A stretch of DNA of 64,000 nucleotides from Acidobacteriota bacterium (GTDB lineage Bacteria > Acidobacteriota > Blastocatellia > UBA7656). The stretch covers positions 62,001-126,000 of the forward strand of contig JACQDB010000138.1 in assembly GCA_016201275.1 (NCBI GenBank), in the 5' to 3' direction. Within the stretch, counting starts at the first letter, position 1, and every line of letters begins with the position of its first letter. Both the position numbers and the translations under genes were made by a program. The notes beneath the pieces are model-generated. The model saw nothing but the letters and a program-made list of their open reading frames with translations, did not search any database and was not told where the DNA came from. This document shows positions 1 through 56,599 of this stretch, piece by piece.

Positions 1-57
1 GAAGAGACGTGCACAAGCCGTTGCACGTTCCGCCCAGATCAATCATCTATCGTCTAA
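1..57 (+). CDS. queD: QueD C-terminal end (6-carboxytetrahydropterin synthase), partial
   Basis: Only the last 18 codons are in the window. In the frame starting at base 1 they read to a TAA at 55-57 and include ETCTSRCTF, which matches the usual QueD ending (an ETCT..C.Y/F pattern). QueD converts dihydroneopterin triphosphate to 6-carboxy-5,6,7,8-tetrahydropterin in preQ0 synthesis. The stop overlaps the ATG of queE by one base (TAATG), so the two genes are probably translationally coupled. The call rests on this short motif and on the queE and folE neighbours. Confidence 0.72.
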   Translation, partial: EETCTSRCTFRPDQSSIV

Positions 58-671
58 TGAGCGAAAAGCAATATTTTGTAAACGAAATCTTCGCATCCAT
101 TCAGGGCGAAGGAGCGAGAGCAGGAACCGCAAATGTCTTCATCAGATTTGCGGCCTGTAATCTGGCCTGCAACGGCGAAGTAATTGACGGCGTATTGCAG
201 CCGGTATGCGATACGCAATTCACCGGAGGCCGCAGGCTCACGGCGCAGCAGATCGTTGCAGAGGCGGCGGAAGTTGGTGGCAAGTGCAATTATGTAATCC
301 TGACCGGCGGCGAACCGGCATTACAGATTGACGAAGAATTGATCGAAGCCCTGCACACCGCCGGATACCAAATCGCCATTGAGACCAACGGCACGAAGCC
401 CCTGCCCAAAGGACTCGATTGGATCTGCGTCAGTCCAAAGACCGCCGACCACACGATTCAGGTTCTCGATTGCGACGAAGTGAAATTCGTTATCGGTGAC
501 CGCCAGGCGCTGCCGAAAACCCAGATCCGCGCCACGCACTATTTCCTGTCGCCCGCCTGGGACGCCGACGGGTTGAAGCGGCAGACGCTCGACTGGTGTA
601 TCGGTCTCGTTCGCCAAAATCCACGCTGGCGCTTGAGTCTGCAAATTCACAAATTGCTCAACGTCAGATGA
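57..671 (+). CDS. queE: 7-carboxy-7-deazaguanine synthase (QueE), radical SAM
   Basis: The protein of 204 aa turns 6-carboxytetrahydropterin into 7-carboxy-7-deazaguanine. The N-terminus carries NEIFASIQGEG, typical of QueE. Three cysteines, C34, C38 and C51, lie where the [4Fe-4S] cluster ligands sit (C-x3-C-x12-C, with the central loop expanded as in many QueE proteins), and TGGEP at 83-87 is the SAM-binding motif. I chose the ATG at 57 because it overlaps the queD stop and the conserved domain starts there. An in-frame GTG at position 9 would only add residues lying inside queD. folE follows after 37 bases. Confidence 0.93.
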   Translation: MSEKQYFVNEIFASIQGEGARAGTANVFIRFAACNLACNGEVIDGVLQPVCDTQFTGGRRLTAQQIVAEAAEVGGKCNYVILTGGEPALQIDEELIEALHTAGYQIAIETNGTKPLPKGLDWICVSPKTADHTIQVLDCDEVKFVIGDRQALPKTQIRATHYFLSPAWDADGLKRQTLDWCIGLVRQNPRWRLSLQIHKLLNVR

Positions 672-708
672 GCAAGCTGCATTCGCGCAAAACCAGGAGA
701 GCCGTAAA

Positions 709-1275
709 GTGGAGGAACTACAACAACGTCTGATCGCCGACTCGGTGAAAACCATTCTCGTCGCCCTCGGCCAGGAGCCAGAACGTGACGATCTCCAGCG
801 CACGCCGGAGCGAGTCGCCAAAGCCCTGGGGGAATTGACTTCAGGTTATGCTCAGGATCCCGCTCTGATTCTCAGCACTACGTTTGAGAGCCGGGATTAT
901 GATGAGATGATTATTGTTAAAGACATCGCCTTCACTTCGCTTTGCGAACATCATCTTCTAGTCTTCGAAGGCACGGCAACCATCGCCTACATTCCATCGC
1001 AGCAGCGTATTGTCGGGCTATCGAAATTCGCCCGCCTCGTCGAGTGTTTTGCCCGTCGGCTCCAAGTGCAGGAACGTCTGACGACCCAGATCGCCCGGGC
1101 CATTCAACAGCATTTGCAGCCGCAGGGCGTTGGGGTACTGCTTAAAGCCAGTCATTCCTGCATGGCGATTCGCGGCATCCGTAAGTCAGGGCTGACTGTA
1201 ACGAACTGCTTGCTTGGCGCAATGCGCGATGACGATAAGACGCGCGCCGAGTTCATGGCGCTGGTTAACCATTGA
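709..1275 (+). CDS. folE: GTP cyclohydrolase I (FolE)
   Basis: At 188 aa this is the usual length for FolE, which opens GTP to dihydroneopterin triphosphate, the first step towards preQ0 (and folate). Seen are CEHH at 79-82 and SHSC with H149 and C151, the zinc and catalytic residues, plus the GLSKFARLV signature. The conserved GxAHxxYIP segment reads GTATIAYIP, so the usual His is Thr. The start is GTG 709, with the Shine-Dalgarno-like AGGAGA at 695-700. Next to queD and queE the likely role is feeding phage 7-deazaguanine synthesis rather than host folate. A tRNA starts 11 bases after the stop. Confidence 0.95.
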   Translation: MEELQQRLIADSVKTILVALGQEPERDDLQRTPERVAKALGELTSGYAQDPALILSTTFESRDYDEMIIVKDIAFTSLCEHHLLVFEGTATIAYIPSQQRIVGLSKFARLVECFARRLQVQERLTTQIARAIQQHLQPQGVGVLLKASHSCMAIRGIRKSGLTVTNCLLGAMRDDDKTRAEFMALVNH

Positions 1276-1285
1276 TTTTTTTTAT

Positions 1286-1361
1286 CGCGGGATAGCTCAG
1301 ATAGTAGAGCGGCGGACTCATAATCCGCAGGCCACAGGTGCAATTCCTGTTCCCGCTACCA
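1286..1361 (+). tRNA. tRNA with CAT anticodon (Met, or Ile2 if lysidine-modified)
   Basis: A 76-nt cloverleaf can be folded by eye. The acceptor 1286-1292 pairs with 1351-1357. The D stem is GCTC/GAGC. The anticodon stem GCGGA/TCCGC holds the loop CTCATAA, and the T stem is ACAGG/CCTGT. CCA is encoded at 1359-1361. Odd points: position 1:72 is C-T, mismatched as in initiator tRNAs, yet the anticodon stem lacks the three consecutive G-C pairs of initiators. The D loop (AGATAGTA) has no G18-G19 pair and the T loop reads TGCAATT, with G at position 55. It is probably an elongator-type phage tRNA. Charging cannot be decided from sequence. Confidence 0.85.
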
Positions 1362-1436: not shown

Positions 1437-2282
1437 GTGACAGGATTTTTTGACAACCCCATGCAAAGAGGTCAACCCCATGCGGAGAAAGCAAAATTAA
1501 AAACCGGGAAACCGAAACGCAATCGCTCAAAAGTTGACAAGTACGTCCTCGATGGCAAACTTCGCTGCGGCGCTCGTATACAGACTTGCCGCAATTGCGA
1601 ACATGAATACACCAAAGAAGAATATGAATTGCTTGCCTGTCCGGTCTGCAAAACGGATCGCCGTTGCACAAGCGATAAGTTGATGGCGAACCGGCGCTGC
1701 AACGCGCACGGCGGCGGCACCCCATCGGGAGTCGCCTCGCCGAATTATAAGCACGGGCGCTATGCGACGTTCTTCGAGCAGCTTGGTCTTGGTGATTTGC
1801 ATCAAGCCGCTTTATTAGGTGACCTTCACTCTTCGGACGATGCGTTGGCATCCATGCAGACCCGCGTCTTTTCCTTGATGCGGGGTGGCCAGGGCGTTGA
1901 CTTATTTCGCACGCTGAAAGAAACCTGGTCAAATTTTAAGAAAGCCGGTCGCGATAAAGATGCAGAAGGGCAGAAAACATTCTATATCGCGCTCGACAAT
2001 CTGATCGAGCAAGGCGATGACGAGGCCGACCGATGGGAAGAGATCATTGCAATTGAGGTCAAAATGGATCACATGCGCCAGCGGGCGCATCGTCGGGCGG
2101 TTGATGCGCAGGTTCTCGTCCGACTCGAACAGGCGATTGGGATGATGGCGATGTTCTTATATGCGACCAAGACGATTATCAAGTCCCGATTCGAGCAACT
2201 CGGGATTTCTCAGGAGTCACAAAAAGTTATTACCGACATCGGCAAAGAATTCGACCGAATCACTGAAGGCGGCGATTCGTAG
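1437..2282 (+). CDS. Putative terminase small subunit with N-terminal zinc ribbon
   Basis: The 281-aa protein sits directly before the large terminase, where the small (DNA-recognition) subunit is expected. The basic N-terminus is followed by two CxxC pairs (CRNC and CPVC) and then CNAHGGG...GxxSPNYKHGRY, a pattern often seen in phage terminase small or HGG-containing packaging proteins. The C-terminal half is helical and charged. The listed start is GTG 1437, and ATG 1461 is equally possible because neither has a clear ribosome binding site. The function is inferred from position. Confidence 0.6.
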   Translation: MTGFFDNPMQRGQPHAEKAKLKTGKPKRNRSKVDKYVLDGKLRCGARIQTCRNCEHEYTKEEYELLACPVCKTDRRCTSDKLMANRRCNAHGGGTPSGVASPNYKHGRYATFFEQLGLGDLHQAALLGDLHSSDDALASMQTRVFSLMRGGQGVDLFRTLKETWSNFKKAGRDKDAEGQKTFYIALDNLIEQGDDEADRWEEIIAIEVKMDHMRQRAHRRAVDAQVLVRLEQAIGMMAMFLYATKTIIKSRFEQLGISQESQKVITDIGKEFDRITEGGDS

Positions 2283-3699
2283 CATCTGGCACGAAGACGA
2301 GCCGCAATACAGTACAAAAGACGTTAGGCCGCCGGTCTTTCGTGGTGCGAATTTAATCATTCAATCCACGACCCTGCATGAGTGGATGCTCTCCGGGCCG
2401 TCCGAAACCGGCAAGACCTGGGCGGCGCTCTGGCGGCTCGACTCGCTGATGAGGGCAACGCCTCTGTCGCAGAATGTCCTGGCTCGAAAGCTTCAAGTTT
2501 CTATCTGGGGCACAGTTCTAATCACCTATCAGCGCATACAGGCGCTGCGTACTGATCTTGGTGAAACTCCGGCTGAACCGTTCGGCGGTCAAATGCCGCA
2601 ATGGTATGATTACAGTAATGGCGCTCGCTTATGGATAGGCGGGATGGACAATCCGAACAAAATTCTGTCGGGGGAACGCGATTACATATATATCAACCAG
2701 GCGGAGGAGTTGGAGTTGAACGACTGGGAGACGCTGACGACCCGTGCGACGGGTCGTGGTGCGGTTACGAACACGCCGATGATCTTTGGCGATTGCAATC
2801 CCGGCCCGGAAGACCATTGGATTCTCAAACGTGAAGCCTTGACCGTCTTTCACAGCACCCATCGTGATAACCCTTCGCTCTACGATGAGGATGGCAATAT
2901 AACCGAGCAGGGCGAACGGACAATGAAGACGTTGCACGCTCTGACCGGCGTTCGTAAAGCCCGGCTCTGTGACGGCAAATGGGTTGGCGCGGAAGGGCAA
3001 TTTTTTGAAGTTTTTGATTTTGATCTACACACCTGCGAGCCGTTTGTTATTCCCGCAGACTGGCCGATCTGGGGGGCGCTAGACTATGGCTTTTCGCACC
3101 CGACGGCGTTCGGCTTATTCACGCAAGATAACGACGGTGGCATTTACCTGATTGGCGAGCATATTCAACACAAGTGGTTAGTGCCGCAACATTGTAAAGC
3201 GATTCGCCGCCTAGCCGAGCGCTTGAATATTTCGTGGAGCAGAGTTGAAATCGTAGTCGCCGGTCACGATGTTTTTCAACAACGTGGGGCCAGCGATAGC
3301 CGAACGATTGCCGATCAGTATTGTGATGCGATTGACCCAGAGACAGGAAAAGCAATCGGCATTATCAATCTAAAAAAAGCGACCATTGATCGTATCACCG
3401 GCGCACAAGAGCTTCTCGCCCGGCTCGGCAACCCGGAAGTAAACATCGCGCCGACGCTCAAGTTCTTCAACACTTGCAAGCGGACCATAGCAACGATGAC
3501 CAGAATGGTTCATAACCCAAATGACTCGGAAGATGTGAAGAAAGTTAATGCGGATATGAATGGTGAAGGCGGTGATGACCCCTATGATATGGTGCGCTAC
3601 GGCGTGATGTATAAAAAGCGAGAAGGGGCGGTATTCTCCATGGGAGAAACATCTCCTGTGGCTCAAGTTCAACAATCTGGATTGGGAATGATATTATAA
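2161..3699 (+). CDS. terL: Terminase large subunit (packaging ATPase-nuclease)
   Basis: This motor protein packages DNA into the prohead. Walker A-type SGPSETGKT is at 78-86, a Walker B-like YIYINQAEE at 175-183, GDCNPG at about 208-213, the first nuclease acid in ALDYGFSHP (D306), and a late acidic DDPYDMVRYG motif. Within YIYINQAEE, NQ stands where DE is common. The coordinates use ATG 2161, which would overlap the small subunit by 122 bases. The conserved part starts only near 2275, where no ATG, GTG or TTG is available in frame (an ATT at 2275 follows GAAGG), so the true start is open. The stop overlaps the next ATG (TAATG). Confidence 0.92.
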   Translation: MRPRRLSSPDSSNSGFLRSHKKLLPTSAKNSTESLKAAIRSIWHEDEPQYSTKDVRPPVFRGANLIIQSTTLHEWMLSGPSETGKTWAALWRLDSLMRATPLSQNVLARKLQVSIWGTVLITYQRIQALRTDLGETPAEPFGGQMPQWYDYSNGARLWIGGMDNPNKILSGERDYIYINQAEELELNDWETLTTRATGRGAVTNTPMIFGDCNPGPEDHWILKREALTVFHSTHRDNPSLYDEDGNITEQGERTMKTLHALTGVRKARLCDGKWVGAEGQFFEVFDFDLHTCEPFVIPADWPIWGALDYGFSHPTAFGLFTQDNDGGIYLIGEHIQHKWLVPQHCKAIRRLAERLNISWSRVEIVVAGHDVFQQRGASDSRTIADQYCDAIDPETGKAIGIINLKKATIDRITGAQELLARLGNPEVNIAPTLKFFNTCKRTIATMTRMVHNPNDSEDVKKVNADMNGEGGDDPYDMVRYGVMYKKREGAVFSMGETSPVAQVQQSGLGMIL

Positions 3700-46102: not shown

Positions 46103-47884
46103 CTATCGCAGACCTGTCGGAAATAATAGATACCCATTTGCCTGCACCATATTCGATGCCGGATAAACGACAAGCTGCAACCCGGACAGGGTCGAGACAT
46201 TAGCGCGAAAGCCACTGCTGAGTGATGAAACGCCTGCCTTCGCCGCCAGGTCCTCTCGTGATATTGATCGCGGATAGATTTGTAGCAGGATTTGCAGTAG
46301 GAGCTTTTGCGGTTGCGATAGCGCCCGCGAATTCATCCATGCCTGGTGAAGCTCTGCCAATCCCGCCGGCGCATTCGCCTGATTGGCCGTCGCTCTCCCC
46401 TTCTCCGTCAATCCCAGACAATCAGCCTGCGGATAGTACACCAATTCCATTCCGCTCAATGTGGAAACGTTGGCTCGGTAGCCTGAAGAACGAGGAGAGA
46501 CGCCCGCGATTGCAGCGACGTTTGAGCGCGAAGGCGAATCTATTCCCACCGCTTCAAACCAGGCGAGCGCGTCCAGAATGGCCTGCTGTGGCCTGCTGAT
46601 GCCGTCTGCGCTTTTCGGCTGTGCTATCGGTTTTGGTTTCTCAACGCCTCGGTTGAAAGTTTTATGGCTTCGCTCTATTGGGTGAGCAGGTTGGTTTTGA
46701 ACCGTCGTATTCACAAACTTCGCCACTTCATCCCATAATAGAGCGCTGTTGGTAAATACGCAGCTCCTTGCCTCGACCACCTGATGACCTAATTCCTCAG
46801 TCTTTCTTTGAACTCCTTCCAGTAACCTCTCCGCTTCCTGCTTGAACTCGCCGATTAAGTAAACCAATCGCCTCTCTGCTTCTTCTGAAATCGCAGTCTG
46901 GTTGCCAGCTTCGGGGCATTGGTGCGCCCGAAGCTGCGTTACTTCCCTTTCAAGCTGAACAATCTTTTGACGCAGAGCTTTAGGATCGTCCGCCTTCTGC
47001 TTCTCAACAACCGCCTGCATCGCTTCGTTGATCTGCGCGATGTCCACCGGACTAAGCTCTTTCACCTCAACCGGCTTTGCGCCAACAACAGGCGTGCTAC
47101 TCGCGTCATAGGTTTTCTTTTCGGCGATTCTGATGGTCTCCGAGAACTTCAACCACTGTGGAGACCAGGCGCGAGGCGTGCCGATTTCTAGCCCCGGCAA
47201 CAGGTTGAAGATGTCTTCATTCACGCCTTTATCGGCAATCCAGCCTTCGATGGCTTTGCGCTCCTGCGGCCCGGTCATTTGAAAGGCGAACAGGCATTCA
47301 GCCTGATTCAAAACCTTCTTATTGACCTCCTGCGGGCGCTGGCTGATGAGCGACGCACCGATGCCGAAGTTGCGACCAAGCTTAATCAGGCGCTCAAATG
47401 CATGAAGCTTTTTGGTTTCGTCCTTCTGCGGATTTTGCGGCGCAACCTCCTGGCACTCTTCTAAAAACAGATGTATCGCAGACGGTCTGGCTTTCTTGCG
47501 CTCAAACAGGCGCGTGATAAATTCGTATGCAAAGCGCGTCTGCTCGCTGGCAATCATCTGCGAAATATCAATCACGGCGGAATACTCGCGGTCAACAACG
47601 AGGTCGGCAACAAGCGCTCCTGTATGCGAATCAATCGGCACATCACCGTGCAGGCCGCCAAACACAGGGATTGGAAAACCTGGGCTTCGACCGTCCTTCG
47701 CCAGCCGTAAGCCATACCAAACACCTACAACGTCGAGTGCCACAATCTGGGCTTTGGCTTCGAGCATCAGTTCCGCCAGCTTTGAAGCTCCGTAGGTTTT
47801 GCCGCTAGAACGCCGTCCGAGGAAAGCAAAGACCTGGGTTACGGCATCAAGCGGTAAAGATAATTTATTGGATATTTTCAGCAT
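46103..47884 (-). CDS. HerA-like P-loop ATPase with tandem winged helices
   Basis: 593 aa from ATG 47,884 (GAGGAG upstream; an in-frame ATG 60 bases earlier lies in the preceding gene). Walker A GRRSSGKT is at about 23-30, Walker B-type HLFLEECQE near 137-146, and ISQRPQEVNKKVLNQAE forms the sensor and Arg region of DUF87/HerA ATPases. A coiled coil (about 310-400) follows. The C-terminus holds two copies of a winged-helix-like unit, each with SGxRANVSTLSGxxLVxYP. HerA hexamers translocate DNA. Such a gene in a phage accessory arm suggests defence, counter-defence or DNA processing. Confidence 0.85.
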   Translation of the reverse strand: MLKISNKLSLPLDAVTQVFAFLGRRSSGKTYGASKLAELMLEAKAQIVALDVVGVWYGLRLAKDGRSPGFPIPVFGGLHGDVPIDSHTGALVADLVVDREYSAVIDISQMIASEQTRFAYEFITRLFERKKARPSAIHLFLEECQEVAPQNPQKDETKKLHAFERLIKLGRNFGIGASLISQRPQEVNKKVLNQAECLFAFQMTGPQERKAIEGWIADKGVNEDIFNLLPGLEIGTPRAWSPQWLKFSETIRIAEKKTYDASSTPVVGAKPVEVKELSPVDIAQINEAMQAVVEKQKADDPKALRQKIVQLEREVTQLRAHQCPEAGNQTAISEEAERRLVYLIGEFKQEAERLLEGVQRKTEELGHQVVEARSCVFTNSALLWDEVAKFVNTTVQNQPAHPIERSHKTFNRGVEKPKPIAQPKSADGISRPQQAILDALAWFEAVGIDSPSRSNVAAIAGVSPRSSGYRANVSTLSGMELVYYPQADCLGLTEKGRATANQANAPAGLAELHQAWMNSRALSQPQKLLLQILLQIYPRSISREDLAAKAGVSSLSSGFRANVSTLSGLQLVVYPASNMVQANGYLLFPTGLR

Positions 47885-47894
47885 TCGTTTCTCC

Positions 47895-48896
47895 TCAGAC
47901 CTGCACAACTTCCTTCTTCTTGCCCCTGCCTCTTGAAACCTCAAGAAACAGGCAGCTCTCGCGGCCTTTTAATTCGATTTTGCCGCCTTTGGCTTTGGCT
48001 TCGAGCGCCGCTGTTTTGATCGCTTCAAGGCGATCTCCATCGCGCCACATGAGCGCCTTGATCATCGCGTCTTTGAAGTCCGGCAACACATCCTGCTCAA
48101 CGATTTCCGCAATCTCTGTGGCGAGTTGCTTTTTCAGCCGAATGATTCCTTCGTCGGGAAGCAACTTGAAGGCGCTCCCGTAGAACTCTAATGAGCGCCA
48201 AACAAAATACGGCACAGATTGATCTTCTTTGAGAGCGGCCATAAGCAAATCGAAAAACTCCCGCACTTCCTTTGTCCTCGCTGTGAGTAACGGCGTCAGC
48301 AGGTCATTGACCTGTGCCTCAAAAGCATCCTCTTCATCTTTATCGTGAGCGGTTGCCAGCCCCACGATGACACTTTTCCATTTTTCTAAAAGCGCGTTCA
48401 TATCTTTTATCGGCATACAGTTTTTTCTCCTCATTCCAAATGCTGCTCCATAGGCAAGCGATAGAAAGCTGTGTTGCAAAATTTCAAGAACACTATCCTT
48501 CAAGACATTTTTGCCAAGGTGGTAGCTGTTGATGATCGCCGTGCGAATACCCACCGGTTCGCCGGCTATCTCCTTTTCTGAGAGATAGCTTTCGACGAGT
48601 TCAAAGCGAAAACACCAAACGGGTTGATATACCGCATCGCGTCCAAACCTGGCAGCATAGGCGTCCTCGAAAGATTTTTTGCTTTTGAATCCTTCCTGCA
48701 AAATATCCTCATCAGAAATCCGGCCAGCAGAGCGTTTGGTAAAAATCTCAGTGATGCGAATCCGACCAATGGGTTTACCGCAGCGCTCTTTCCGAATCGC
48801 GTAGGTTCGGTTTGTAACGTAGCAGCCGCGAACCGGGCGCGTCGTCAAGGTCTGCTTCCCTTGAAGAACTTTTTGCCAACTGTGCATAAACAGCAT
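47895..48896 (-). CDS. ASCH-domain protein with helical C-terminus
   Basis: 333 aa. The N-terminal ~105 residues look like an ASCH domain (MHSWQKVLQGKQTLTTRPV...IGRIRITEIF...VYQPVWCFRFELVE); ASCH folds bind RNA or modified nucleotides. The larger C-terminal part (about 110-333) is helical, with no family recognised. AAGGAG sits 6 bases before the ATG. It lies 10 bases before the HerA gene, so the two are likely co-expressed. Confidence 0.7.
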   Translation of the reverse strand: MLFMHSWQKVLQGKQTLTTRPVRGCYVTNRTYAIRKERCGKPIGRIRITEIFTKRSAGRISDEDILQEGFKSKKSFEDAYAARFGRDAVYQPVWCFRFELVESYLSEKEIAGEPVGIRTAIINSYHLGKNVLKDSVLEILQHSFLSLAYGAAFGMRRKNCMPIKDMNALLEKWKSVIVGLATAHDKDEEDAFEAQVNDLLTPLLTARTKEVREFFDLLMAALKEDQSVPYFVWRSLEFYGSAFKLLPDEGIIRLKKQLATEIAEIVEQDVLPDFKDAMIKALMWRDGDRLEAIKTAALEAKAKGGKIELKGRESCLFLEVSRGRGKKKEVVQV

Positions 48897-48909
48897 CCTT
48901 TACTCCTTA

Positions 48910-49903
48910 TTATCGAATTTCAAATAATGCGCCCTGCTCAAACCTCGCCTGTTTACTTGTCTGTGCGGCCTCTACGAACTTCTCTTTATCACCGTTTGCC
49001 TGAGCCGCAATGGCTTCTTCAAATTTTGGCTTCAGCTCTTCCGATTCGATCACCCGTTGCGTCATTGCTTCGCTGGTTATGGGCTCGAGCTTCACCGGCG
49101 TTATGCCGTATAAACGCATATTGAGCCGAGTCATCTCCACGCACAGCGCGTCAATATCCTGCCCGTAATATTGGATGAAACCGATTTGCGAGAGCCAAAG
49201 CGGATGACAGGCGGCAAACGCCAGAAGCATGATGCCGCTGCCGACACAACAATCCTGCACCGTGATCGGCCTAAGCTTCGGCTGTATCAGCGGCCAGGCG
49301 CGCTCAATGAAAAACCGGAGCGCCTGTCCGTTGCCTTCGGGGGTTTGGTCGCCCATTCCACAGGCGAAGGCCAGCGCCTGCAACACCGGGTTTTCGTTAA
49401 CAACCTTTCGCACTTGTGCGTGGAATTCCTGTTCGATGTCGCGATCAGCAACCTGCATCTTCGCCATCATCAACGCCACCGGCCAGGGCGTAAAATACTG
49501 GGCGTTGTAGTTCCATTTGCTGGAGCGGCCGGAGAGCATTTCCATATAGGCGCTGCCAATGATGTCGGGGCCGTAGAGCGAATCATGCATGGCAAATTCG
49601 TTTAACGGCTCTGTACCGAGCAGCAGTGCGCCGAAGGCCTCGGCAAAGCAGGAGAGGGTGCGGTCGCTGTAGCGGTTGCCAATCTCGCGCTCCCAGACCG
49701 CTTTCGATTCCGGCTTGGCTATAGACTGTCCGGTCAGCTGATAGTGAAAATGCGCCGGCAGATCATCGAGGCAGAGGATGCAGGCTTTTACAAAGCCGCG
49801 AAAGGCATCGAGATAGTTTACGTCGTTGGCTCTTTGCAGGATTGAAACGATTCTCTCAACCGTTTGTCTTGGTGAGAGTGTGCTGAGTTTTTTTTAGGCT
49901 CAT
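48910..49903 (-). CDS. N6-adenine-methylase-like gene with frame break at an A8 run
   Basis: The clear ATG with GGAG 7 bases upstream is at 49,903, but after five codons the reading frame shifts at eight A (T8 at 49,888-49,895 on the plus strand). With one A fewer, the frame is open for 330 codons to 48,910. The region from 49,590 down has its own ATG (226 aa). Motifs: YNAQYFTPWPVA, QDCCVGSGIML (motif I) and YYGQDIDALCVEMTRLNM, as in HsdM-type methylases. No NPPY/F motif IV is visible, so catalysis on adenine is doubtful. Confidence 0.65.
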
Positions 49904-49910
49904 ACTGGTT

Positions 49911-49924
49911 CTCCATATCTTGAA
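49911..49924 (-). promoter_or_regulatory. Shared 5' leader segment, copy 1
   Basis: On the minus strand the leader TTCAAGATATGGAG supplies the ribosome site before the methylase-like gene. The same 14 bases occur before the gene at 61,816, and 13 of them again at 61,951-61,963. Confidence 0.6.
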
Positions 49925-49938
49925 ATCTTCCTTTCTTT

Positions 49939-50046
49939 TCAAATTGTTTTGTCTTCTGAGGTATCACTGAATTCTGCGTACTCTACGACAGCAGACAGGT
50001 GACACAATAAAATTTCTCGCTCTTCTGCCGAAAACCCAATTTTCAT
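49939..50046 (-). CDS. Possible 35-residue peptide
   Basis: Begins MKIGFSAEEREILLC and ends ...DTSEDKTI. The amphipathic helix and acidic end are protein-like. The ribosome site is weak (CACGGAATTA). Other frames across this stretch code for basic, Ser-rich peptides that look like shadows. Confidence 0.4.
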   Translation of the reverse strand: MKIGFSAEEREILLCHLSAVVEYAEFSDTSEDKTI

Positions 50047-50091
50047 TAATTCCGTGAAAGAGGTGGCAAACTGCAACCTCGTCCATTCTCG

Positions 50092-50379
50092 TCAGGCACG
50101 GCGTGGTCGGCAGTACCCAAAATCCAGCCGCATGTACAAGCCGCTGTAGAGGCGGAATACGCCAAGCCAGTCCTTCTCCATATCGTAACCCGATTGGAGA
50201 ACGATGATTTGCTGTATCCATTCGCGCGGAAACCGCACGTAAGCATCGGAAAACTTCTCGGCACCGACAATTTTTGAGCGCGTGTACTCGAAGGCGGCAC
50301 GCCAGTCCTGCTCAAGTAAATCAATCGGAATAATAGGAAGGAAAACACCGGTATTTTCAATAGGCTTTAGTTTGCTCAT
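50092..50379 (-). CDS. Hypothetical protein (95 aa)
   Basis: Balanced composition with FPREWIQQIIVLQSGYDMEKDWLGVFRLYSGLYM, a globular alpha/beta pattern. No ribosome site is evident before the ATG (AAAAAAAGT). Family not recognised. It starts the HerA/ASCH/methylase group after a 176-base gap. Confidence 0.5.
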   Translation of the reverse strand: MSKLKPIENTGVFLPIIPIDLLEQDWRAAFEYTRSKIVGAEKFSDAYVRFPREWIQQIIVLQSGYDMEKDWLGVFRLYSGLYMRLDFGYCRPRRA

Positions 50380-50555
50380 ACTTTTTTTATTTGTCCAGAT
50401 AGGGTTTTCGGGATCAAAGTCAGCGCGAATTACGACTCTGATTTAAGTGAAATCAAATGGGCATCTTGATCTAAGTGTGAATTGATGCCGCGATCAGTAG
50501 CGGATTGAAACAGCAAAGTGACAGTAGATTTCTTTTGATGCGCTCACTACCGCAC
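50380..50555. other. Intergenic gap without a clear feature
   Basis: A 176-base space between two leftward genes. I see AT-richer sequence and an imperfect 8-bp palindrome near 50,452-50,474, but no convincing promoter, terminator or ORF. A promoter for the downstream group could lie here. Confidence 0.4.
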
Positions 50556-51743
50556 CTATTTGATCAAAAGCGGGGCAACACTGCCATCATTATACACCTT
50601 GTCGTGTGGTACATCGGCTCGTGGCTCGGTGCCTGACCAGCCATCTGGCCAGGTGTTTTCGGCAATCAAAAACTCTATGCGCGTTCGCTCCTCGTCAGTG
50701 ATCAAACGGATTTCCGGGCGACTCGATAGCCGCGCTTCGTTGTTGACCTGCTGTTGAATATCAAGAACGACAGACAAGCCGTAGCGTCTGGCATCGAACG
50801 TCAGCGGTCCCATGCGTTGCTGCTTGCTGGCGAGCGTTCCATCTTTGCGCTTATCGCCTCCGGGTTTGCGTAACCGATTGCCCGGCTTCTTCAATTCAGC
50901 ATAAAGCTGGCGCAGTCCGCGAAGCGGCGCAAGGTATGACCAGCCGGGTTGCTTCAAAACCACTTCAAGCGCACGGTCTTCTGTTACCAGATTGCATCCG
51001 ATGCAGCCGGTTCGGGTATTGATGTTTTCCGCTTCAAGCCCGCCGTAGGCTTCGCAGATCAGGCGGGTAGAGAAGCCGAGCGCTGGCGCTTGCGTCTGTA
51101 GCCACGCCCATACATTGCACGGTCGCCAATGAAGAATGGGTGCGAGGATATCGGTTGCCGATGCGGGCAACGATTCCTGATACCAGCCCTGCCCACATTC
51201 ACCACCGTCGCGTGTGCAACTCGTTATGATTCGTAGATCGCGTTGCGCGCTTTCGCCGAGTCGGACGCCGGTCAGCGTCAACACCTTCTCGCCCTTCTCA
51301 CGCGCAATTTCTTCGACCGGCAATTTCATGGGCAACACCTTGAGTTTTTCCGTACACCAGCGAAAGCGATTTGATGGAGGTGGCACGCCACGCCCAAACA
51401 TATAGACGAAGAACCGATGATCTAAGGCGGGCTTCACGATCCGCACATCGAAGCCCAGTTCGCGCATTTCGTTCATGATCTGTTTGGCGCAGGCAAAAAG
51501 CGCAGGGTTTTCGAGCAACGTATCGGCAAGCAGGATGGTAAAGCTTTGTGGTGCGGGGATGCGACCTTCACTGATTAAATGCGCGGCGACGGTAATCATT
51601 GTCGTCGAATCCTTGCCCATCGAATAGGCGGCGCACCAATGGCGATACCTGGAGCCGTAGGCGGTGAGCGACTCGGCGGTTAGCTCAATTGCTTCGCGCA
51701 AAGTCAATTTCAACTCTTCAAACAGACTGGGATGATTGGTCAT
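50556..51743 (-). CDS. DndC-like PAPS-reductase-family sulfurtransferase (PP-loop)
   Basis: 395 aa. The PP-loop SMGKDST at 41-47 activates with ATP. ADTLLENP (73-80), FGRGVPPPSNRFRWCTEKL (about 116-133), TGVRLGES (158-165) and TGCIGC (245-250) match the order of conserved blocks in DndC, which puts sulfur into the DNA backbone. C130 and the CxxC at 247/250, with C176 and C183, could bind an Fe-S cluster. No dndB, D or E partner is seen in the window. It overlaps the upstream PP-loop gene by ATGA. The exact substrate is unknown. Confidence 0.82.
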   Translation of the reverse strand: MTNHPSLFEELKLTLREAIELTAESLTAYGSRYRHWCAAYSMGKDSTTMITVAAHLISEGRIPAPQSFTILLADTLLENPALFACAKQIMNEMRELGFDVRIVKPALDHRFFVYMFGRGVPPPSNRFRWCTEKLKVLPMKLPVEEIAREKGEKVLTLTGVRLGESAQRDLRIITSCTRDGGECGQGWYQESLPASATDILAPILHWRPCNVWAWLQTQAPALGFSTRLICEAYGGLEAENINTRTGCIGCNLVTEDRALEVVLKQPGWSYLAPLRGLRQLYAELKKPGNRLRKPGGDKRKDGTLASKQQRMGPLTFDARRYGLSVVLDIQQQVNNEARLSSRPEIRLITDEERTRIEFLIAENTWPDGWSGTEPRADVPHDKVYNDGSVAPLLIK

Positions 51744-52852
51744 GGTTTAGATTCCCACCGAGCGTTTATGAGTTCCTGGTATCTGGCGATGATTGAATCC
51801 GGCTCAGTGAATCCGGTTGCAATTCCCACGGCTTGCGAAACACTGTGCCGAACTTCTGAGAGCATCACTGCCTCATCAAAGGTCGGCACAGCAACCGGCC
51901 AACCTTTAACATAGAGCATGGATTTCGGAATATGCGCTTCTGCCGCTTCCCGTTGTCTCGCTCTCTGTTTGGCTTCAAGTAGTAAATCCAGCGTACCCAC
52001 AGGCAAAAGATGAGGCGCAATATCACCGAGCCATTGACCGGATTGGAAGCTGAAGGTTGTTTCAATTTCGAGCGCCACCATCTCGCGGTACAGCTCTGCG
52101 TTATCCTCGCACTTGCTGGCGGCGCGCAGATCATTCTGCGAACCCAAGATGCAAAAGCAACAACTGACACGGGATGAACCAAAAACGGTATAGGCTTCAT
52201 GCAGAGGAAAGTTCTTTGCTTTAAGCAATGGAAAAACATGAGCCTCCATCTTGAAATCAAGAATCGGATGCCAGTCAATGATGGTCATCATTGAAGAGAT
52301 CGCGCGCTCTTTACAAACAGGTTTCTTTGCGCGAGCCGGGCTTTCCTCCCGTCGAATGCCCGTAACTGAAATAACCGTCTGGCCTTTGAATCGCTTTGCC
52401 AGATAGCGCGAGATGATCGCGGTCTTCAACTCGGAAGTACAAAAGCGCATCGAAGGCGTTGACCAGGGCAAGATGAGTTTTACGCATTCAAGAGCGGCAT
52501 ATCGCGCGACGTTGTTACGCCAGCGCTGTTGCCAGCGCGCCAGCATATCGCCCGATTCTCGCCGCACTACTATCAATTCAAGCCCTAATACTTTTGCGAG
52601 GCGTTCACAGGTTGGAAGTGAGTCTTTCCATTCAGTACGCCCGAGGTCACTGTGGATCAAGATGCGTTCGCCTGCGTGGCCAACCGAATCAAGATAATCA
52701 GATAACGCGAAGGCAACCGCGCAGGAATCCTTCCCGCCTGAAACACCGATGGCGATGGGCGCGCCATCGGCAATTTGCTGAGAGATTTCTGGAGTTATAC
52801 AAATTTCGAGCGTCTTATTCGGCAAGCCTTCGAGAGCAATCCGGTTATTCAT
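51740..52852 (-). CDS. Second PAPS-reductase-family PP-loop protein
   Basis: 370 aa. VSGGKDS at 37-43, MRFCTSELK (135-143, C138), TGIRREES (164-171) and a CCxC at 231-234 in SRVSCCFCILG make it a PP-loop ATPase of the phosphoadenosine phosphosulfate reductase family, of the type common in phages. Fused or adjacent partners in such families transfer sulfur or modify nucleotides; here it is coupled by ATGA to the DndC-like gene downstream. Confidence 0.82.
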   Translation of the reverse strand: MNNRIALEGLPNKTLEICITPEISQQIADGAPIAIGVSGGKDSCAVAFALSDYLDSVGHAGERILIHSDLGRTEWKDSLPTCERLAKVLGLELIVVRRESGDMLARWQQRWRNNVARYAALECVKLILPWSTPSMRFCTSELKTAIISRYLAKRFKGQTVISVTGIRREESPARAKKPVCKERAISSMMTIIDWHPILDFKMEAHVFPLLKAKNFPLHEAYTVFGSSRVSCCFCILGSQNDLRAASKCEDNAELYREMVALEIETTFSFQSGQWLGDIAPHLLPVGTLDLLLEAKQRARQREAAEAHIPKSMLYVKGWPVAVPTFDEAVMLSEVRHSVSQAVGIATGFTEPDSIIARYQELINARWESKP

Positions 52853-52956
52853 TTTCCATTACTCGCTTTTTGAACTGGATGGACGGCGCGATCAATAACA
52901 GCGCCACAATAAAGGTCAATGCAAGTAAGTTTCTTCTTCTGCTTATGAGCGTTCAT
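52849..52956 (-). CDS. 35-residue ORF coupled at both ends, frame uncertain
   Basis: Begins with ATGA at the stop of the ASCH gene and ends with ATGA at the next start, a tight arrangement. The encoded peptide has KKLTCIDLYCGA, which faintly recalls the first motif of C5-cytosine methylases but stops there. A competing frame across the same bases encodes RRRN, a 17-residue hydrophobic stretch and KKR, a better membrane-peptide profile, but without a usual start codon. Confidence 0.35.
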   Translation of the reverse strand: MNAHKQKKKLTCIDLYCGAVIDRAVHPVQKASNGK

Positions 52957-53423
52957 GATGTTTTTAGCTGCTCCCGTATTTGTTGTTCGATCTCTGGCGG
53001 TACTTGCCACAGGCCGAGCGCGCCACGACAGGAAATCGGTTTTGCTACTCGCACCGGATCGCATAGCTCTATGGCTATACGACCTGAAGAATAATCGCCA
53101 AAGGCGAGTTCCTGACTTGATAAGGTTTGCCGGATGTTTTGCGTTTGCCAGGTCTGCGCGATGCGGGCGCATCCGACGATTTCACCGAGTGGCAGTTGCG
53201 CCCAGTCGGTGAAATTGTGTGCAGCAAGAACCGACCTGAAAGGTTCGGTCTTGCATAAATCCTTTGCCCACTTCGGGAAGGTCTTTGCCGCGTGGATGGC
53301 GACAATTTGTTGGCGTGGTGTCCATTGCCAGCTGCGAGTCTCATATTGCTTTTCAGCCTGCCCTTTTGCGTTAATTAAAACGACGAGTGTCGCCCAAGGT
53401 TGAGTTAGTGAAAGAGCTTTCAA
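52953..53423 (-). CDS. ASCH-domain protein (156 aa)
   Basis: TTG 53,423 is preferred because AAGGAGG lies 5 bases upstream and the conserved ASCH start LSLTQPWATLVV follows directly. The upstream ATG at 53,492 has no such site. YETRSWQW, IVAIHAAKTF, LPLGEIVGCARI and RGALGLW are the usual ASCH blocks. A role in RNA or modified-base recognition is likely from the family; no partner is evident beyond the PP-loop genes that follow. Confidence 0.8.
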   Translation of the reverse strand: MKALSLTQPWATLVVLINAKGQAEKQYETRSWQWTPRQQIVAIHAAKTFPKWAKDLCKTEPFRSVLAAHNFTDWAQLPLGEIVGCARIAQTWQTQNIRQTLSSQELAFGDYSSGRIAIELCDPVRVAKPISCRGALGLWQVPPEIEQQIREQLKTS

Positions 53424-53500: not shown

Positions 53501-56500
53501 TCAGGTAAAATCAAAAAGCCCGACGGCTTCATGCTGAGTAGGCGTCGTCAGCTCGGACAGTTGTTCGTATTGCTCTTTGTCGAGTGTGTTCAGTTTTGTT
53601 TTGTCGCCGTCTGCGCCTTGGTTGAGCGCCCGGTCAATGATCTCCAGCTTCTCCACCAGCGTGACCGCCATCTTCGCGTCGAGCGAGCCTTCCAGCACCA
53701 GATGCTGAACCAAGACGGAATCGCGTTGACCGATGCGATGAACGCGATCTTCGGCCTGGGCTAAATTCGCTGGCGTCCAATCAAGTTCCGCAAAGACAAT
53801 ATGCGAAGATGCAGTAAGCGTCAGGCCGACGCCGGCGGCGCGAATGTTGCCAACGAAGACCTGACAACTGGGGTCGGTTTGAAAGCGGTCAACCGCCTGC
53901 TGGCGGTCGCTGGTTTCCAGACCGTTGATGGTTTTCAGATTCGCTGAAACTTCGCCGGTGACGATGACCGCGCGATTACCGAAGGGCGCAGCAATCTGCT
54001 TGATCACCTCAGTATGCCAGGCCATGACAACAACCTTATAGGTCGAGTCGTCTTCGACGAGCGAACGGATGTGATTGATCACGTATGGAACTTTGGCGAT
54101 TGCCGTGTCGTGGCGAAGTTTTGCCATCTCCTCAAAGGCGGCTGACATGCCTTTTTTCAGGCTGGCAACAGCGACTTTGTATTCGGCATCGTTATCGCCT
54201 GCCTTCGCCTGTTGAACCGCGGCCTTCAGTTTTTCAAGCTCACGCTCGCGCTCGTTCCAAGCATTGATCTCGGCGCGCAAAATACTGGAAGCCCTGGAGT
54301 CGTCGAGCGCAAATTCAATAATCTGGCGACGCTTGGGCGGAAGCTCCGTCAATACCTCTGATTTGAGTCGCCGGCACATGATTGTGGCGCGCAACTTATC
54401 CTGCAATTCGGCAAGCCGACGCTCTCGCTGCGTGTAGGAGATGGCGCAGTAGCGTTGAGTAAATTTCAGGCGGCTGTCCCACGTCAGGGGGTCGAGCGTC
54501 TGCAGGAGGTCGAAGACCTCCTCTACGCGATTCAGGAGCGGCGTCCCGGTGATCGCGCCCTTGCGGCGGGCGGCGCGCAACAGCGCCTGAGCGCAAGCCC
54601 CTCGCTGAGAATCGCGATTTAAAATCATGTGGCTTTCATCGGCAAATACCGCATCCCATTCAAACCCCAGAGAGCCGAGACCATCCACAACCATGCTCTG
54701 TTTCTTCTGGCCTTCGCGCTTCGACTCCTTATGCCAGTCGAGATGTTTGGGCAGAATGTCATAGTTGGCGATAACAATATCGGCTGCCTGGAATTTCCAT
54801 ACCGAGGTTCGAGAATCAGCGATCAGAATGCGGCGGCGGATGACCAGCCATTTATTGAGTTCCCGATACCAAACCAATTTCAAACTCGCTGGACATAGGA
54901 TTAATATTTTCTTCATTGAAGAAATCATGTTCATGATCCCGATTGCCTGAATCGTGTTGTGAGTTACAACGAAATCATCGGTAACATAAAGTTTTTTGAT
55001 CGAGTCTATTGCAATACACTTGGTCTGACATTTCCCGGCGTAAGAGATGTTTGTTATTTTCCTTTTAATTGGTTTATTTGTTCGCGGAGATAGATTCGCT
55101 CTCTTGCGAGATAATCGAAAGACCCATGAGGGATCGCTCAACCCCACCGAGACCGCATAGGTAATTCGGTAGTTTTTACCCTTGAATTTTGATTGGTAAC
55201 TGCATATCCCAGCAATGCCACCCAAAGACCTAATAAGGTGACTGACATCCTCAGCCAAACGATTACTACTCGTATAAAACACAGCACCATTTTTCCCTTT
55301 AGCCGCCGTTCCATCCGTATCCATTAAACCTTGAAGTAGGGCAATCCTTTGTTCAACAGAGGCAAATAGATAGATATTAGGAATGAACTTTTCCCATGCC
55401 CTTAGCTTGTAGAGTCCTAAATTTCGATATGCAACTTTAATTTTGTTTCTGTTCCACGTATGTCCGGGCTGAGAGATCATGTAGGCATAATCCGCTACCT
55501 GGCGAACGCGAAGTCCGTTAGGAAGCACTTTGGACACATTATCAAGTATCTCTTGATCGGTAGTTGCGAATATTACATTGTCTCCTGTTGTGCTTCCGTC
55601 TCCAATAAGGACTCCGAGTAAATAGGGATCCAAGGGCAATTCTGCTTTTTCAAATTGTATCGGGTTAGCGATTGGAATGGTAAACCTGTATTTTCCATCT
55701 GATTCCTTAAGCCCTTTATTTAGAATTTCTTTTGTCGTGAGAACGGCAATTTTATTTTCTATCGGGCGGCGACGCCTGATTTCAACTTCCCACAAATGTT
55801 CTAAAGTTGCATGAGATTTTACCCCGTCGCTGAAGGTAAATTCATAAACATCTTGTTCCCCTTGCGGATAAACTCCTACCACCTTCGTAGGCAAGCCATC
55901 TACGCCAATAACAGAATCGCCTTTCTGTATATCATTCATTGTCACCCAGCCCGAAGGGGTTAGCAATTTGGAGTATAAAGGCTGCGCTTTACCTAAACCC
56001 ATTTCGTCAGCAAGTAAAACTCCCCTTGAATTTTCAAAACACTTCAAGCCAAAAGCTACCCCCGCGCGTTGGTACGGCAGATAATCGTCCCGGAGATTGG
56101 CGGGCCTAGGAATCGCAATCGCGGCATCTATGGCGCGACTGGCGGCCTTTGCCTCTTCCATCTCCCGGCGCACGCGTTGCAGATACTCGCCGCACGAAGC
56201 ATTGGCGTATTGCACAAGCAATGACGCGCGTTCGGCGTCGGTCGTCCACCAGTGCCCGGCTTTATGGTCCCAGGTGAAACCCGCGTCTTTGGCCAACGCC
56301 TTGTGTTCCTTCTCGGAGAGAAAGACAAACCCGTCGCCCTGGCATTTGAGCACCGTCGGTTGTTTCGGCCTGGCGACGATCTGCATCAGCCGTTCGCGCA
56401 ATTCTCCTTCGGCATAGTGGCGAAGGCGGGCGGCGATCAAAATGTCTTCGGTAAACCAGTAGCGGTCTTGCGGAAGGGGCGCTTTGTAATTGAATTGAAA

Positions 56501-56599
56501 GCCTGCCCGTTTCGGTATCTCTTTCTCGGCAAACGTACAGCAACAGATGAACCGCTCAACGCCCTGAATCCGGCGGGCGATCAACTTGATTGGTGACAT
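53501..56599 (-). CDS. SNF2-family helicase interrupted by an intein
   Basis: The precursor is 1032 aa; removal of the 344-aa intein leaves 688. The N-terminal region (1-170) has HARP-like GFxW repeats (AGFTWDHKAGHWWTTD). Walker A GLGK|T is split at K204 by the intein. The helicase continues with DAVFADESH (649-657), TGTPLLNR, and EDRVHRIGQRDSV. SNF2/SMARCAL1-like enzymes remodel replication forks or DNA-protein complexes; related genes occur in phage replication and restriction islands. ATG 56,599 follows a terminator region. Confidence 0.92.
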   Translation of the reverse strand: MSPIKLIARRIQGVERFICCCTFAEKEIPKRAGFQFNYKAPLPQDRYWFTEDILIAARLRHYAEGELRERLMQIVARPKQPTVLKCQGDGFVFLSEKEHKALAKDAGFTWDHKAGHWWTTDAERASLLVQYANASCGEYLQRVRREMEEAKAASRAIDAAIAIPRPANLRDDYLPYQRAGVAFGLKCFENSRGVLLADEMGLGKAQPLYSKLLTPSGWVTMNDIQKGDSVIGVDGLPTKVVGVYPQGEQDVYEFTFSDGVKSHATLEHLWEVEIRRRRPIENKIAVLTTKEILNKGLKESDGKYRFTIPIANPIQFEKAELPLDPYLLGVLIGDGSTTGDNVIFATTDQEILDNVSKVLPNGLRVRQVADYAYMISQPGHTWNRNKIKVAYRNLGLYKLRAWEKFIPNIYLFASVEQRIALLQGLMDTDGTAAKGKNGAVFYTSSNRLAEDVSHLIRSLGGIAGICSYQSKFKGKNYRITYAVSVGLSDPSWVFRLSRKRANLSPRTNKPIKRKITNISYAGKCQTKCIAIDSIKKLYVTDDFVVTHNTIQAIGIMNMISSMKKILILCPASLKLVWYRELNKWLVIRRRILIADSRTSVWKFQAADIVIANYDILPKHLDWHKESKREGQKKQSMVVDGLGSLGFEWDAVFADESHMILNRDSQRGACAQALLRAARRKGAITGTPLLNRVEEVFDLLQTLDPLTWDSRLKFTQRYCAISYTQRERRLAELQDKLRATIMCRRLKSEVLTELPPKRRQIIEFALDDSRASSILRAEINAWNERERELEKLKAAVQQAKAGDNDAEYKVAVASLKKGMSAAFEEMAKLRHDTAIAKVPYVINHIRSLVEDDSTYKVVVMAWHTEVIKQIAAPFGNRAVIVTGEVSANLKTINGLETSDRQQAVDRFQTDPSCQVFVGNIRAAGVGLTLTASSHIVFAELDWTPANLAQAEDRVHRIGQRDSVLVQHLVLEGSLDAKMAVTLVEKLEIIDRALNQGADGDKTKLNTLDKEQYEQLSELTTPTQHEAVGLFDFT
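54956..55987 (-). mobile_element. Probable class 3 intein with LAGLIDADG homing endonuclease
   Basis: 344 aa, inserted between the Lys and Thr of the helicase Walker A motif (GLGK|A...HN|TIQA). It starts with Ala1 instead of Cys/Ser. Block B has HLWEVE (Trp66), block F KCIAIDS (Cys324), and the end VTHN has Thr342, His343, Asn344: together the Trp-Cys-Thr triplet known from class 3 inteins. The two LAGLIDADG motifs are LLGVLIGDG (123-131) and LQGLMDTDG (218-226). The extein +1 residue is Thr. Splicing is predicted, not shown. Confidence 0.85.

Follow-up and report, generated by a model that had tools for sequence, protein, structure and literature searches.

The 64,000-nucleotide stretch of Acidobacteriota DNA analysed here (the window; bases 62,001-126,000 of a 204-kb contig in a genome of 6.84 Mb) carries, on the minus strand at 46103-53423, genes for two PP-loop enzymes, a methylase-like protein, two ASCH-type proteins and a HerA-type ATPase, and the candidate DNA-modification cassette within this run is the subject of the present analysis. 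In order of transcription, an SNF2-type helicase gene with a LAGLIDADG intein (53501-56599), which lies directly upstream of the cassette, is followed by a small ASCH-like protein (52953-53423), two PP-loop ATP pyrophosphatases of the PAPS-reductase/DndC superfamily (PAPS, 3'-phosphoadenosine 5'-phosphosulfate), here called PAPSR-A (51740-52852) and PAPSR-B (50556-51743), a non-coding gap (50380-50555), a frame-disrupted small open reading frame (ORF) with coding-like text (49940-50379), an N6-methyltransferase-like gene (48910-49893), a longer ASCH protein (ASCH-long; 47895-48896) and a HerA/FtsK-type ATPase (46103-47884). The SNF2 gene matches SNF2-rel_dom at 4.3e-34 and LAGLIDADG_3 at 5e-12, and profile matches place the intein at ~54,930-56,000, with approximate bounds, within 56599-53501(-). 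A sequence-only reading of this region had described tight coupling inside two sub-operons (53,423-50,556 and 50,379-46,103). This description suits PAPSR-A and PAPSR-B, which overlap by 4 bp, and the intervals of 13 bp between the N6-like gene and ASCH-long and of 10 bp between ASCH-long and HerA, but not the ~100 bp that separate the small ASCH gene from PAPSR-A. The two sub-operons themselves are 176 bp apart, and promoter- and terminator-like sites, in this gap and in the region as a whole, were no more numerous than in the shuffle background.

The plus strand of the window encodes, from ~2 to 46 kb, a terminase, portal, prohead protease, capsid, sheath, baseplate and tail-fibre set (the first five recognised by eye in the translations, the last two by PHROG), and the minus strand of the prophage holds helicase, ParB and DUF932 genes. 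Since phage structural genes occupy one strand and these genes the other, the genes at 46103-53423 are the distal portion of the early gene region in a temperate myophage prophage and not a bacterial island. All of the genes previously assigned to an accessory island are present where they had been placed, but the island is not free-standing. A tRNA-Met (CAT) gene that adjoins a FolE gene also lies within the prophage region (window 1286-1361).

Both PP-loop proteins match Pfam PAPS_reduct, PAPSR-B (51743-50556) at 1e-8 and PAPSR-A (52852-51740) at 6e-9; PAPSR-A belongs to phrog_424 and PAPSR-B to phrog_12882 (2e-139). The AlphaFold2 model of PAPSR-A (predicted local distance difference test, pLDDT, of 84) and the predicted model of PAPSR-B (pLDDT 80) each adopt a PP-loop fold, and their structural matches, of HUP-like fold, include GMP synthetase, LarE, TilS, APS reductase and the tRNA thiolase NcsA. 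As modelled, both are thus PP-loop (N-type) ATP pyrophosphatases. Alignments agree with the models: the SxGKDS loop is invariant in both families and conserved cysteines are kept, and in PAPSR-A the motifs SGGKDS, FCTSELK, RREES and CxxC are conserved over 12 relatives. Phage genes named PAPS reductase are routinely counted as sulfate-assimilation (cysH) genes, and the names in PHROGs and GenBank, together with the Pfam PAPS_reduct match, would favour reading this pair as auxiliary metabolic genes for a CysH-type PAPS reductase. However, the catalytic ECG[LI]H found near the C terminus of CysH is absent from both proteins, the best curated match of PAPSR-B is DndC and not CysH, and the relatives described below lie in a DNA-modification context. 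We rejected sulfate assimilation on motif and context and consider it very improbable.

PAPSR-B had been called DndC-like, which is correct in so far as it is a homologue: its best PADLOC matches are DndC models (1e-39), and it is 25% identical to a Salmonella DndC. It is not a DndC by the curated model, however, and the prophage supplies it with neither DndD nor DndE as a partner. Against TIGR03183, with a cut-off of 290.4 bits, PAPSR-B scored 129.6 bits and PAPSR-A 18.8 bits, both below it. For the three [4Fe-4S] cysteines plus cysteine dyad of DndC the picture is mixed: C130, C247 and C250 of PAPSR-B align with DndC C146, C280 and C283, two DndC cysteine sites (ECP and SCGN) are absent, and C176, C183 and C209 are invariant instead. 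Matches of the PP-loop proteins to SspD/BrxP in PADLOC were weak. The host genome does possess a dnd locus, on contig C59 (L216 8531-17297), with a DndC that scores 511 bits, DndD, a DpdB-like gene in the place of DndB, and DndE fused to a HerA/DndH-type ATPase. Its presence would suit an alternative in which the phage DndC-like proteins act on the host phosphorothioation system, poisoning or competing with its DndD/DndE or borrowing them. We regard this as unlikely, since PAPSR-A and PAPSR-B occur in hundreds of phages and plasmids across varied hosts and since PAPSR-B is so distant from genuine DndC in identity and cysteine sites.

Neighbourhoods were counted in loci from viral contigs (26 for PAPSR-A, 80 for PAPSR-B and 49 for HerA); expectations for the nearest two genes were drawn from the remaining genes in those loci, and whole-locus counts were compared with HerA by Fisher tests. 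Results showed a DNA methyltransferase within two genes of PAPSR-A in 12/25 loci, against 2.7 expected, and within two genes of PAPSR-B in 21/71, against 8.6 expected; the corresponding count for HerA was 4/47, against 1.9. Anywhere in the locus, a DNA methyltransferase was present in 20 of the 26 PAPSR-A loci (nominal p=7e-6) and 43 of the 80 PAPSR-B loci (nominal p=5e-4), compared with 11 of 49 for HerA. An SNF2 helicase accompanied PAPSR-B in 16/80 loci and HerA in 0/49. The difference for ASCH proteins (22/80 near PAPSR-B, 7/49 near HerA) was not significant (p=0.09). Random assortment among relatives, which the sequence-only reading had set against a shared function, is therefore what these neighbourhood counts give for HerA, but not for the PAPSR genes, which are linked to methyltransferases.

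The association is also seen in two Pseudomonas plasmids, pF023 and pNY5530-NR1, which carry a collinear series of phrog_5696 (the family of the window's N6-like protein), PAPSR, a C5 methyltransferase, a hypothetical gene, ASCH, a second hypothetical gene and Gp37/Gp68. Their DNA is 97.5% identical up to the PAPSR start and 93.4% identical from the PAPSR end, the phrog_5696 proteins are 98% identical, and homology is lost only within the PAPSR gene, which profiles identify as PAPSR-B (681 bits) on one plasmid but as PAPSR-A (492 bits) on its counterpart. One PAPSR family has thus been exchanged for the other inside a conserved modification locus. PAPSR-A is also coupled directly to phrog_5696 in L170 (15 bp) and L028 (4-bp overlap), so that direct coupling of the two is recurrent, but not the rule. 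Among viral relatives of the pF023 phrog_5696 gene, the next gene encodes a Dam-type methyltransferase (L231), a DpdA-family protein of phrog_887 (L232), an N4/N6 methyltransferase, after which comes a PAPS reductase of a third type (L230), or a small protein of phrog_5928 that looks nuclease-like by eye and is accompanied by an SNF2 helicase (L228 and L229). The third type (L230 8984-9958; phrog_424, 3e-66) stands between N4/N6 and C5-type methylases, near phrog_5696.

Further PAPSR or phrog_5696-type genes lie among anti-restriction and methyltransferase genes. ArdC is directly upstream of PAPSR-A in an Acidiphilium locus (L174); antirestriction, ParB and DUF932 genes are near PAPSR-A on an Agrobacterium plasmid; and a Skermanella plasmid has ASCH, ArdC-type zincin and phrog_5696-type genes beside a relaxase. 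PAPSR-A sits between C5 and site-specific DNA methyltransferases on a Gloeobacter plasmid, and PAPSR-B directly follows a C5 methyltransferase on a Deinococcus plasmid. On a Piscinibacter plasmid (L220 5929-10016), a DndC-like PAPS-reductase-like protein (A4 profile, 4.9e-15) is encoded two genes on from PAPSR-A. In three other loci (L022, L030 and L048) the PAPSR genes are each split over two ORFs, in the manner of a disrupted frame. The cassette swap, and the slot that PAPSR shares with methyltransferases and the DpdA family, argue that the PAPSR families are DNA-modification enzymes. Swapping of enzymes in relatives, beside known DNA-modifying enzymes, suggests a role in the chemical disguise of invading DNA.

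The methylase-like protein of the window matches Pfam N6_Mtase at 1.8e-9 (37.8 bits; cut-off 20.4) and phrog_5696 at 2.4e-16, a family that the plasmid partner matches at 1e-77. As a single query it found no relatives in viral contigs, phages, plasmids or genomes of the same class; a profile built from three plasmid or genome relatives nevertheless matched it at 4.8e-10. With the plasmid forms of phrog_5696 it shares the N-terminal region and the half that holds the S-adenosylmethionine (SAM) site, at about 21-30% identity. Motif IV, (N/D)PP(Y/F), is absent from the window protein and the three relatives, which are all phrog_5696 members, and the relatives end shortly past the strand that would precede NPPY/F. 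Plasmids carry the family very commonly, with 2,126 records matching its pF023 member, a count that may include full methyltransferases. The coding frame of the N6-like gene extends back to 49893 with no start codon, and an ATG-initiated ORF begins only at 49590 (49590-48910). The earlier description as methylase-like stands for the family and the SAM-site half, but the catalytic NPPY is missing and the frame is broken at its start. The preceding ORF (50379-50092), which has no Pfam or PHROG match, likewise appears disrupted: past its stop, the first frame becomes coding-like again. At the 5' end of the N6-like gene (window 49,888-49,916) there is an A8 run with the heptamer A_AAA_AAC (49,895), a few codons after an ATG (49,916), and the gene could possibly need a -1 programmed frameshift. 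Since the RNA 3' of the heptamer shows no unusual structure (z=-0.8) and the adjacent ORF is broken as well, decay or an assembly error is an equally likely cause.

Of the two ASCH proteins noted earlier, only the longer (48896-47895(-)) is recognised by Pfam itself, at 24.6 bits against a cut-off of 21.2; its ASCH domain (residues 8-102) is followed by ~230 further residues, and as a single query it found no relatives in phages, viral contigs, plasmids or same-class genomes. The small protein (53423-52953(-)), which has a TTG start with AGGAGG, gave no match to Pfam ASCH. Its assignment comes through phrog_3193 (6e-25) and relatives, with 38-39% identity to Pfam-ASCH proteins of phage loci (39% to that of L045). 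The ASCH superfamily is often tied to RNA, and NcsA, TilS and LarE are among the top fold matches of the PP-loop enzymes; these enzymes could accordingly be pictured as thiolating tRNA in the manner of NcsA, TtuA and TilS relatives, with ASCH binding RNA. We think this quite improbable, considering that the neighbours of the PAPSR genes are DNA methyltransferases, DpdA and ArdC.

The HerA-type ATPase (PADLOC HerA, 2.3e-18) has a Walker A motif, GRRSSGKT, at residue 23, a Walker B motif, LFLEE, and winged-helix-like repeats at its C terminus. Profiles and PDB HerA chains match it only over their own C-terminal half, the ATPase core, with which the window protein begins; no match was obtained to the N-terminal HAS-barrel. 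A match to phrog_2666 raised the possibility of a terminase, which was rejected since a separate TerL-like gene is present at 2161-3699, and a direct link of ASCH with HerA, hinted at by L003 and L120, was rejected at 1/47 loci against 1.0 expected. The 49 viral relatives of HerA occur in unrelated early-gene contexts. Since these neighbourhoods are unrelated and show no methyltransferase linkage like that of the PAPSR genes, HerA (47,884-46,103) is probably a separately assorting neighbouring early gene and not part of the modification cassette. The proposal of nucleic-acid modification or anti-restriction therefore extends, through linkage, swap, slot exchange and ArdC or antirestriction neighbours, to the methylase-like protein as well as both PP-loop enzymes, with weaker support for the small ASCH protein, but not to HerA. 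The free variation of HerA's neighbours would also be expected if the whole region were a mosaic of helicase, reader, PP-loop and HerA genes, acquired independently as accessories and without a common function, their adjacency reflecting the modular build of phages. In keeping with such a mosaic, the full gene set was found in no other locus, PAPSR-A and PAPSR-B occur together in 0/110 loci, the tandem having been seen only in the window, and two genes have broken frames. Yet the PAPSR-methyltransferase linkage is well over the within-locus expectation, and the PAPSR A/B exchange inside a conserved locus is clean, so that we judge the mosaic somewhat unlikely while giving it serious weight.

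The reading that we prefer, tentatively and with somewhat less than even confidence, is that 53,423-48,910 represents an exchangeable cassette for DNA modification (anti-restriction) that belongs to temperate phages and plasmids, here in a phage copy. At its centre would stand a single orphan PP-loop enzyme of DndC-like type, or several (here PAPSR-A and PAPSR-B), with a methyltransferase-like partner in which the SAM-site half of an N6-methyltransferase persists but the catalytic NPPY strand is lost, together with an ASCH domain. In the proposed mechanism, which goes beyond the observed fold, motifs, methyltransferase linkage and slot exchange, the PP-loop enzyme would use ATP to adenylate an oxygen of DNA, which would then be replaced, probably by sulfur handed over the conserved cysteines. 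The methylase-like protein would guide the PP-loop enzyme onto DNA, ASCH would read or handle the modified product, and the altered DNA would escape host nucleases and so be protected. Several observations weigh against this reading. The prophage contains neither DndD nor DndE, convincing matches in the genome being confined to contig C59, and known DndC requires both. No C5 or Dam-type methyltransferase match was obtained in the prophage, over the 124 kb examined, with the profiles at hand, and most of the 109 PAPSR loci from phages and viral contigs have no adjoining phrog_5696, with one direct case, L028. Moreover, the p values given above are optimistic since the counted loci are partly related. 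Finally, breaks in the N6-like frame and in the ORF ahead of it mean that the window copy of the cassette may be partly decayed.

Two further gene clusters lie in the same prophage region. The first, a deazaguanine cluster (L009 17644-19674 and window 57-1275), encodes ParB, a DpdA-family protein (phrog_887), QueC, a QueE-like radical-SAM protein and GTP cyclohydrolase I. The second, at L009 8067-10420 (window -11933 to -9577), encodes an IbrA-like PP-loop protein (PAPS_reduct and DUF3440), a ParB-like protein recognised by eye and a protein that weakly matches N6_N4 methylase. A layered system of the cassette with the deazaguanine genes, as suggested previously, is possible; in L232 a DpdA-family protein fills the same slot as PAPSR. 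A bolder version of the cassette reading, which we hold to be doubtful, is that the orphan PAPSR enzymes of phages and plasmids constitute a DndD/DndE-independent DNA-modification pathway guided by a catalytically truncated N6-like partner, and that this prophage runs two such enzymes in tandem beside a deazaguanine pathway. If true, DndC-like modification that dispenses with DndD/DndE would give mobile DNA a new route past restriction.

Within the literature library covered, no description emerged of the PAPSR/phrog_5696 cassette, nor of PAPSR with ASCH or an N-6 methylase. Among known systems, DndC of DndABCDE (TIGR03183), whose features have been reviewed with the dnd core (PMC10853773), has in common with PAPSR-B the PP-loop signature, RWCT..K and GCxxC; PAPSR-B differs in its sub-cut-off score, in the missing ECP and SCGN sites, and in its location in a prophage without DndD/DndE. 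The HerA proteins of antiphage and repair systems share the ATPase core with the window protein, which differs in its neighbours and in having no N-terminal domain match. Orphan DndC/SspD genes with type II methyltransferases have been detected by PADLOC in Sinorhizobium phiLM21-like prophages, their affiliation being left open (PMC12429752); here, in contrast, two families stand in tandem, a methylase-like partner is defined, and a swap between cassettes is seen. Orphan methyltransferases and anti-defence genes have also been described in phages and in the leading regions of plasmids (PMC11541004). The present loci resemble these in placing DNA-modifying genes of mobile elements beside ArdC/antirestriction genes; the main text of that study mentions neither PAPSR nor ASCH. 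The 7-deazaguanine (DpdA) modification of phages is comparable in that a DpdA-family protein takes the place of PAPSR in L232 and that this prophage has a deazaguanine cluster of its own, but the enzymes are of different kinds, DpdA being of the transglycosylase type and the PAPSR proteins PP-loop enzymes.

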